A stretch of DNA of 49,263 nucleotides, taken from contig NW_003113961.1 of assembly GCF_000003605.2 (NCBI RefSeq), positions 323,018 to 372,280 of the forward strand. Direction: 5' to 3'. This DNA is from Saccoglossus kowalevskii. Its lineage: Eukaryota > Hemichordata > Enteropneusta > Harrimaniidae. Of this stretch, positions 26,501-48,945 are shown one piece after another. How positions within the stretch are numbered: position 1 is the first letter of the stretch; every line of letters starts with the position of its first letter. The notes under the pieces were generated by a model. It was not told where the DNA came from and did no database searches. It saw only the letters and a program-made list of their open reading frames with translations. Position numbers and translations under genes: made by a program.

Positions 26501-29500
26501 GATCATTTCCAGAGATCCAATATGTGCTTTTAGCTGAGCTAATATACATCTATACATATTGATTTGTTGACAGACCAATTTTATTCAAAACAGACTGTAT
26601 ATAATGTAATACATTTGGTACTTACGGATCTCACAGTTCAAGCCTTCAAACTCAGGCAAGCAAGTACAGGTATAGTAAGTACAGTAATTGTTACATGTAC
26701 CGTCATTCTGACATGGGCTATTAGCGCAAGCATTTACAGCTAAAAATAAAACATGGAATGGAAGATTGTTAAGACTTGTATGATACATATTTAGGAAAAT
26801 GAAACTACTTAACATCCATGGAAGATTCAGATTGGATTAAAATTTGGAATTTGAATTTTTACACCTCAATCGATTCTACAATCCACTTGCTCTAACTTCG
26901 AACCGTAAAAAAACAACAACAAAAAAACATGAAGATTGAATGACAATTAAACTCACAATTTTGACAACGAAGTCCTCTCCAGCAGTCCGAACACTGACAC
27001 TCGTAGTACGTCTGGTAGTTTATACAGACACCAGCATTCAGACAGGGTGATGATTCACAAGCATCCAATCCTGTACAGATAGACAGTAGTAAATGTAATA
27101 CCATGTATGTTTTTAGCACAAAAATATATTGAACACACCACCAATACTCCACAGATGCGTTTATAGTGTTTACATCCTCTTTTGGATCAAAGTTGTCTTT
27201 CCTCAACCAGATTTATAAAAAAATACATTTGTACATTTTAAAGAATGGCCAACATTCAGAAAGTGAAGATAAAACTGACAGCATACTTACTAATTTCACA
27301 ATTTGTGCCTCTGTAGCCAGGCGGACACTGACATGTATAATATCTGCAGAAGTCATCACAAGTACCACCATTTAGGCATGGGTTGTTAGTGCATGCACTT
27401 ACAGCTAGGAATAGAAAAAAAACACACTAATTGTTTAAAAGAGGTAGATAACACATACCCATAATGAATAAGACTTGAACAGTATAATTTTACAATAACT
27501 GTACTTGTTTGTAATCTTAACTTAAAATGATATTGGTTTTGTGTTTACATGACACAAAACTCACAGACAAGAGGCTGTAAAACAGAAAGTGTCATCACTT
27601 TTAACAGCATAACTATTCAAACCAATATAATGCAATGTCTTGGTGTTCACAAACTAACTTACAGATTTCACAGTTCTGTCCAGTGTGGCAGTCATCACAG
27701 GTACAGGTGTAAGTATATGATGTTGGACAGCCATTCTGGCATATACCGTCGTTCTGACATGGGTTGGTGGAACATGGATTGGCCACTGAAATAAAAAAAA
27801 TAAAACAAGAAATTAAAAAAAAATTACATCCTATGACAATTAGGACACGTACATTTTAGATTTCTTTTCAAATTGCATTTGATAATGAATTGACAAAGTT
27901 TTGTTAACACATTAATACTTACAGACATTACAATTGCCACCAGTCCAACAACTACTACAGGAACAGGTGTAAAGGGAACAAGAGTTTTGGTCCTGTAGAC
28001 ATGCACCGCCATTCTGACAGGGGTTAGCATTACACACACTGGTGGCTGAAAATAGAAACACACAACATTCAACCAATGGTTATTGCTAAAATTACTCATT
28101 TTTTAATGTGTCTAAATTCTATGCTAACTTCTGATTAATATAGTATTTTGTTAACGCCTTTTTATCTAGGCAAGGATTAAATATAAAAGAGTACTGCTAA
28201 TTCAAAATTTTGTGACCTGACCTGTAAATCTATTTACATATTCATATTTATATACTTTTCTATTATTAGATTAGAATATGAAATACCTTGAATATGAAGT
28301 GACTAATTCATTGTACAAAGAAATATTTACATTCTAAACATTTCTAAGAATACATTATTCATTTAAGGCAATTCGCACTGAATTTTGCATTAGTGAGTAT
28401 GTTATTACGGGAGAGAAATTCTCAATGTATATAACAGACAACAGTGGATACTCACTAAATTTTAATGTATATAAAAAAAAAAGTTTTAAATGCTTCAAAT
28501 GCCACCTAGGAAAATTTCATGATAGAAGGAAACAATTTTACAAAAGAAAGCAAAATAAAAATTTGGGAAAATGTTCTATGACATTTCAGACACTTGATCC
28601 TTAAAAAATTGTCCAATCATTTTCAGTATCTTATGACTTTAACCTGTACAGATAAAAGCATAAAGAAAATGACATATCTTAAATTTAGATCAACTCCTTA
28701 GGTCAAGGCTCTTCAACCATTTTTAGAGACACAACTTAACTGATGCAGTTGAGATTGGAGGAAAATACAAAATATCTACCATTCTTGTAATTATCTAAAG
28801 AGAGTGTGTTTGCAAACACAAGTACTTACATATATCACAATTGGAGCCAGTCCAGCAGCCTGCACAGGAACATGTGTAGTAGTTGCAGTAGTTTTGACAA
28901 ACACCATTATTCTGACATGGATTACTAATACATACATCAACAGCTGATGATAAATAAATAAAAATATTATAATATTGATATCAGATAATAATAGTGCATA
29001 TTTCACAGTTTCACGATGACAGTTTTTATAGTTTTACTGCCGAATTTTTTGTAATCACATTGTACCTGAAGTTTGTCCCAAGTTTTCCGGGTTTGAATAC
29101 TGTTTGATAATTATGACAGATTGTGATGTGTGATGTGATTGCTCAGGTGTGTATTGGTTGAAAATTTAAAAAAAAAAAAAAAAAAAAATAGCAAATTGGA
29201 ATCAATATCAGGAATGAGCAGAATCACCACATAGTGTACATAAGGGGAAATAGAACACCATTTCATCTACAAAGATAGCATATATGTTTTTATTTTATCA
29301 ATAATTTTACTTTTTTGGACTGTGGAAGTATATTTTTCGTTAAGTTGACGTCTGCAGACACTTATGGATACAACCAGAGTAGCATCCATCTTCACCAGTT
29401 TGATACAAATCGATACAAAACTCTGGTGATAATCACTGATGACTGTTTACATAAATCTGAGCGAAAATACCATGAGATTATATAAAAAGTAACCACTCTC

Positions 29501-48945: not shown

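Follow-up and report, generated by a model that had tools for sequence, protein, structure and literature searches.

A tandem array of eight-cysteine EGF-like domains in Saccoglossus kowalevskii with cysteines on both sides of the inter-domain packing site

We analyzed a 49,263-nucleotide stretch of DNA from the hemichordate Saccoglossus kowalevskii (contig NW_003113961.1, positions 323,018 to 372,280; referred to here as the window), the minus strand of which encodes a long array of epidermal growth factor (EGF)-like domains. Forty-four successive single-domain exons, from D1 (48823..48945) to D44 (27663..27785), each encode a domain with exactly eight cysteines, i.e., the six canonical cysteines of EGF (C1 to C6) and two extra ones. 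The first extra cysteine, A, lies between C3 and C4, five residues before C4, while the second, B, lies between C5 and C6, three residues after C5. A sequence-only reading of the window had reported at least 44 such exons at 27663..48945, and these coordinates equal the outer borders of the exons that we extracted. D1 is the first eight-cysteine exon within the window, and the array goes on upstream beyond it.

Toward the C-terminal end the extra cysteines are lost stepwise. D44 is the last exon bearing both; D45 (27291..27404) has A without B, D46 (26957..27070) has B without A, D47 (26626..26739) again has A without B, and D48 has neither. D48 to D59 (18574..26328) are twelve ordinary six-cysteine EGF exons, so that the cysteine tally per domain is eight for D1 to D44, seven for D45 to D47, and six for D48 to D59. 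Scanning the open stretches of all six frames with a profile revealed two short four-cysteine EGF-like exons, between D55 and D56 (22073..22159) and between D57 and D58 (20175..20261). The last exon (17422..17591), delimited by a phase-1 acceptor and an open frame, encodes a glycine-rich stalk, a hydrophobic transmembrane-like stretch, the tail TRRKKKDRE, and a stop (topology read from the sequence by eye).

Exons were extracted by regular expression and splice sites, and only phase-1 AG/GT borders were accepted. All 59 EGF exons in the window have such borders, and the joined exons are stop-free, giving a product of 2494 positions counting the final stop, its only one. An apparent ninth cysteine after C6 in some domains, together with apparent GC-AG donors, was rejected as an artifact of reading beyond the donor T|GTAAGT. 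Further array exons could be hidden in a 504-base N gap (36967..37470) within the intron separating D26 from D27, which is the longest of the array, or in an 18.6-kb N block adjoining the window.

We found that the spacing of the cysteines is nearly invariant. Twenty-nine of the 44 domains show the commonest arrangement, C-x4-C-x5-C-x6-[A]-x4-C-x-C-x2-[B]-x5-C, without any deviation. The gap between A and C4 is four residues in 43 domains, D44 (seven residues) being the sole exception, just as the sequence-only reading had it. The gap between C5 and B is two residues in 43 domains and three in D17; the earlier statement that the second extra cysteine always occupies a fixed place after the sixth of the eight cysteines thus stands for 43 of 44 and had missed D17. 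The gap between B and C6 is five residues in all 44, and the linker from C6 to the next C1 is six residues at all 43 junctions. When a strict DNA pattern describing the domain was searched for, the window contained 28 exact copies and 100 dinucleotide shuffles contained none. Both cysteine codons are used at all eight positions (for A, 35 TGT and 9 TGC; for B, 22 of each), indicating that the cysteines have been kept while their codons vary. In some rows of the domain alignment, a first Leu codon is written as M by the translation tool.

Similarity among the domains recurs every three exons, with z values of 5.5 at offset 3, 2.9 at offset 6, and 2.6 at offset 9 when amino-acid scores are compared with those of 500 permuted orders, from which we conclude that the array probably grew in part through duplicated three-exon blocks. 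The period is visible, for example, as an F..W type of domain at D20, D23, D26, D29, D32, and D35. In a tree of the domains, the eight-cysteine domains are strongly clustered (3 changes against a shuffled mean of 13.5, with 0 of 500 shuffles as low) and do not form one clade; D45 and D47 group with ten six-cysteine domains (100/97), and D46 joins D53 via long branches. This tree has few columns, 3 of its 56 inner branches are starred, and its bootstrap is unsettled; it was used for no conclusion on origin.

Flanks and paralogues were scanned in the same 572-Mb genome. On the contig that holds the window (C759), the array extends approximately 86 kb further upstream to a first EGF at C759:457831-457932, which carries B only and is directly preceded by a CUB domain (Pfam E 2.7e-10). 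The contig holds 173 eight-cysteine exons in total, of which 170 have intact frames; they are followed by 15 transitional or ordinary EGFs, two four-cysteine EGFs, and the transmembrane-like stretch. Three exons have broken frames (C759:452337-452451, 437562-437679, and 414502-414620), reflecting either sequencing error or a real lesion. Across the 166 eight-cysteine domains found by regular expression on the contig (four intact and three broken domains found by profile only were left out of these counts), B follows C5 after two residues in 164 and has Y, F, or W directly behind it in 164, and A stands five before C4 in 165. No recognized domain within the array carries A alone or B alone.

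The domains belong to the EGF fold. Thirty-six of the 44 match PF00008 at E≤0.05, and eight Pfam families were matched overall at that threshold, laminin EGF not among them. Five domains scored singly reached 16.0-21.2 bits (the PF00008 cut-off is 21.5), while a three-domain piece reached 31. Searches of Pfam, PDB sequences, and folds all returned EGF, the nearest being EGFs of Notch, Delta/Jagged, Del-1, and coagulation factors. An AlphaFold2 model of D7, built from a 44-row alignment, is a canonical EGF (mean pLDDT 92.1). Its best VIA matches overlay it on EGFs of known structure at 0.9-1.1 Å across 37-38 residues, including 1.0 Å on Notch1 EGF12 and 0.9 Å on a Jagged1 EGF; the Foldseek matches listed range from 0.7 to 1.9 Å. 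No Foldseek match reached E 0.001 and all VIA Z scores were below 8, which is unsurprising for a model of 40 residues; the sequence searches agree on EGF.

In the Pfam copy searched, no family gives a better match to the eight-cysteine domain than the ordinary EGF models, and these sequences can fairly be called an EGF subtype that lacks a dedicated Pfam model. The suggestion that they may form an undescribed EGF subtype is in keeping with this outcome. The PDB alignments obtained cover seven distinct chains, of which none has both extra cysteines; a three-domain piece had no match in NCBIfam, and Rfam gave none. The exact eight-cysteine DNA pattern was absent from the viral contigs and from the genome contigs searched; a three-domain query against the viral contigs gave a single stretch that met a pattern, and that stretch was unconfirmed. 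A literature search, which is a weak test, turned up neither an eight-cysteine EGF with cysteines at the A and B positions nor a disulfide linking one EGF to another in the portions of the papers available, PMC9314366 and PMC7971044 included. Within these searches, which took in no annotated animal proteomes, an eight-cysteine EGF array with cysteines on both sides of the inter-domain packing site looks like a new variation on a known fold.

Tandem EGF arrays are stiffened at their interfaces by calcium and by aromatic packing. We asked where A and B fall relative to these interfaces. In the portion of PMC4826273 available, the packing aromatic, four residues past the fifth cysteine of one domain (n), contacts the major beta turn of the next (n+1); an example is W287 in Notch1 EGF7, which packs against H316 in EGF8. 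Work on fibrillin names the two halves of this contact the 'Gly-Phe/Tyr' and 'X-Gly' sites (PMC2724076, as excerpted). Here, Y, W, or F immediately follows B in 42 of the 44 window domains. The equivalent of H316 in the 5uk5 EGF8 chain lies five residues before C4, the same place as A; the W287-H316 count of 29 residues combines the PDB-aligned end of EGF7 with an EGF8 sequence that matches the 5uk5 chain at 39 of 40 positions. B thus occupies the glycine of 'Gly-Phe/Tyr' in domain n, and A occupies the X of 'X-Gly' in domain n+1. By analogy with these solved arrays, A and B lie on either side of the same inter-domain contact and belong to different domains. Notch1 EGF11-13 is described, in the part of PMC3415683 available, as a rod of 100 x 24 x 20 Å, or about 33 Å per domain. 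If B of one domain touches A of the next, then A and B of the same domain would by the same analogy be about one domain length apart.

We hypothesized that B of domain n is bonded to A of domain n+1, in which case the two should appear and disappear together across each junction. In the window, none of 58 junctions is discordant under this rule, while pairing within a domain is discordant in 3 of 59 domains and the other offsets tried give 2 to 4. D45 and D46 would be partnered by B of D44 and A of D47, respectively; only 4 of the 64 possible states of the three transition domains satisfy the rule. Over all the stretches read in this genome, 0 of 242 junctions plus 0 of 9 more are discordant, giving 251 visible junctions.

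The corollary that arrays begin with a B-only domain and end with an A-only domain was fixed once the array was known to extend upstream, but before the flanks were scanned. Outside the window, all three visible C-terminal ends are A-only: C808 has 25 eight-cysteine domains, then one A-only and three six-cysteine domains; a first locus on C4507 has four eight-cysteine domains, then an A-only domain (151675-151854) with no further EGF down to 146501; and a second locus on C4507 has five, then an A-only domain (615107) and a transmembrane-like frame. Upstream of this second locus, on the same strand, a B-only domain (626626) precedes one that carries both A and B, and on C4627 a B-only domain (169413-169595) is followed by two with both. 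Of the starts outside the window, one is proven (C759, after CUB) and B-only, and the two just mentioned are probable starts, likewise B-only (C4507:626626, with 1.7 kb visible upstream and free of EGF; C4627:169413, with 0.4 kb visible upstream). C3252, with 25 eight-cysteine domains entered in the junction tally as bearing A and B, and C4173, with two, have their ends out of view. The ends outside view are N-terminal for C808 and the first C4507 locus (N blocks), C-terminal for C4173 and C4627, and both for C3252 (contig ends); C4507 618001-622500 lies outside the scanned sequence. A flag on C4622 was a scan artifact, in which an upstream cysteine was taken as C1, and was left uncounted, as was a domain on C4661 whose odd cysteine, two after C3, differs in position from A.

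In total, nine domains carry a single extra cysteine (the first EGF of C759, D45 to D47, one on C808, three on C4507, and one on C4627), and in all nine it is the one that the neighboring domain can partner. For the six outside the window, the chance of this is 1 in 64 if A and B are random.

Several points limit the case for inter-domain pairing. The end formed by D45 to D47 suggested the rule and is therefore no independent test of it, and shared ancestry of array ends lowers the weight of the 1-in-64 figure. Three stretches (C4173, C4627, and C4507 after 625811) leave the visible sequence before their last junction and could become counterexamples. Furthermore, A and B co-occur in all 44 window domains and in all 173 eight-cysteine exons on the contig, which is what is expected if the two pair within a domain as a fourth disulfide that ties the C-terminal loop to the central hairpin. 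This was the bonding predicted from sequence at the outset, and we now consider it improbable. The D7 model is a canonical EGF, a fold in which, judged from rod-like EGF pairs, the equivalents of A and B lie at opposite ends of the domain and serve opposite interfaces. Pairing within the domain would also leave an orphan cysteine in each of the nine domains above, all of which fit pairing between neighbors and have a neighbor that offers a partner.

The extra cysteines might instead be free or link different molecules, as has been proposed for the scallop adhesive Sbp9, in a redox-set adhesive or matrix. This has a precedent: the portion of PMC13348336 available describes a 49-repeat EGF adhesive with free thiols and intermolecular disulfides. 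However, the same text describes Sbp9 with six conserved cysteines, and the present protein has a transmembrane-like stretch. The positions of A and B are fixed and lie at the inter-domain packing site, and intermolecular bonds leave the parity of the array ends unexplained; we give this explanation the same low probability as an intradomain bond. An altered connectivity of the eight cysteines within the fold, or metal binding, is compatible with the sequence and is the least probable of the three, since the canonical cysteines keep EGF spacing, the D7 model is canonical, and the parity corresponds to one partner per junction.

We next considered calcium. The consensus D/N-x-D/N-E/Q before C1 occurs in 0 of the 44 array domains, even with D allowed at the third site, and in 6 of the 12 ordinary EGFs, namely D54 to D59 (D57 has D at the third site). 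O-fucose-type and O-glucose-type motifs occur in 15 and 13 of the 44 domains, respectively. The missing calcium ligands, together with cysteines at the packing site, suggest that the calcium clamp and aromatic packing are replaced or backed by one disulfide per junction. Overall, we consider it likely that the locus encodes a membrane-anchored, calcium-independent EGF rod with disulfides from B of one domain to A of the next; the bonds, rigidity, function, and single transcript are all inferred. The product would be a type-I membrane protein of giant size, of which the window holds roughly the last third at the C-terminal end, consisting in full of CUB, 174 visible EGFs (one with B only and 173 with A and B), the 15 transitional or ordinary EGFs, the two four-cysteine EGFs, the transmembrane-like stretch, and a nine-residue tail. 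Along the array, a disulfide staple linking B of each domain with A of the next would stand in for the packing contact and calcium clamp that stiffen ordinary tandem EGFs. The stapled array would form a covalently locked rod of roughly half a micrometre if extended at approximately 3 nm per domain. Its most likely role would be spacing or tethering of the cell surface, as an adhesive, matrix-tethering, or stand-off molecule. If correct, this would represent a new calcium-independent way of building a rod from EGF domains, supply a sequence rule (start with B only, end with A only) for finding such proteins, and offer a natural template for engineered, covalently linked EGF repeats.

At both short loci on C4507 (C4507:148576-149268 and 614003-614431), the last EGF is succeeded by a transmembrane-like frame, judged by eye, and then, on the same strand, by a DEG/ENaC (Pfam ASC) frame; an LDL-receptor A repeat also follows the first locus. 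The EGF loci and the DEG/ENaC frames may be fused genes or neighbors. It is conceivable, though we think it unlikely, that covalent inter-domain disulfides replace calcium in a whole class of animal surface proteins whose very long EGF arrays act as stiff tension-bearing rods; given the DEG/ENaC frames, some members might be rod-tethered mechanosensitive channels. Other long tandem EGF arrays in the genome (C3978:88190-107580, with near-identical repeats, and C4179:151079-160740) contained six-cysteine domains only in our scan. Elsewhere in the window, the intron between D54 and D55 contains a tandem repeat (22480-22634; 41-bp unit, 3.8 copies, 95% match). An open frame on the minus strand (13386-13799) has no Pfam match at E≤0.1; it is reminiscent of the C-terminus of a reverse transcriptase from a non-LTR retrotransposon.

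Laminin-type EGF, integrin I-EGF, and MEGF10/PEAR1-type EGF are eight-cysteine families whose extra cysteines lie elsewhere. Laminin EGF shares the number of cysteines with the present domains, while its spacing is different. Drosophila Dumpy is a giant membrane-anchored EGF-based fiber, with a presumed tension-bearing role at the junction of cell and matrix, in which EGFs are interleaved with DPY modules; here, a single match to the DPY model, at D58, is sub-threshold (17.5 bits; cut-off 27). Byssal and adhesive EGF proteins also contain long tandem arrays, with 49 repeats in Sbp9 and 23 in Perna fp-2, and Pvfp-5 (7qab) is among the PDB sequence matches. However, Sbp9 and Pvfp-5beta have six cysteines per domain in the descriptions available, and these byssal proteins are secreted, whereas the present one combines an N-terminal CUB domain with a transmembrane-like stretch. 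There is also a likeness to the calcium-binding EGF arrays of Notch and fibrillin, which are described as stiff rods in the portions of PMC4826273 and PMC3415683 available, and which share with the present array the fold, the six-residue linker (in the Notch1 chain), and an aromatic four residues after C5 in register with the next hairpin turn. We noticed no companion domain of the Notch or fibrillin type in the window, where no profile scan for LNR or ankyrin was made. In Notch receptors the EGF array is followed by LNR/NRR and cytoplasmic ankyrin repeats; here, past the last EGF, the next exon found encodes the transmembrane-like stretch, nine-residue tail, and stop. Unlike the arrays of Notch and fibrillin, the window array lacks the calcium consensus in all 44 domains and has a cysteine on both halves of the packing site.
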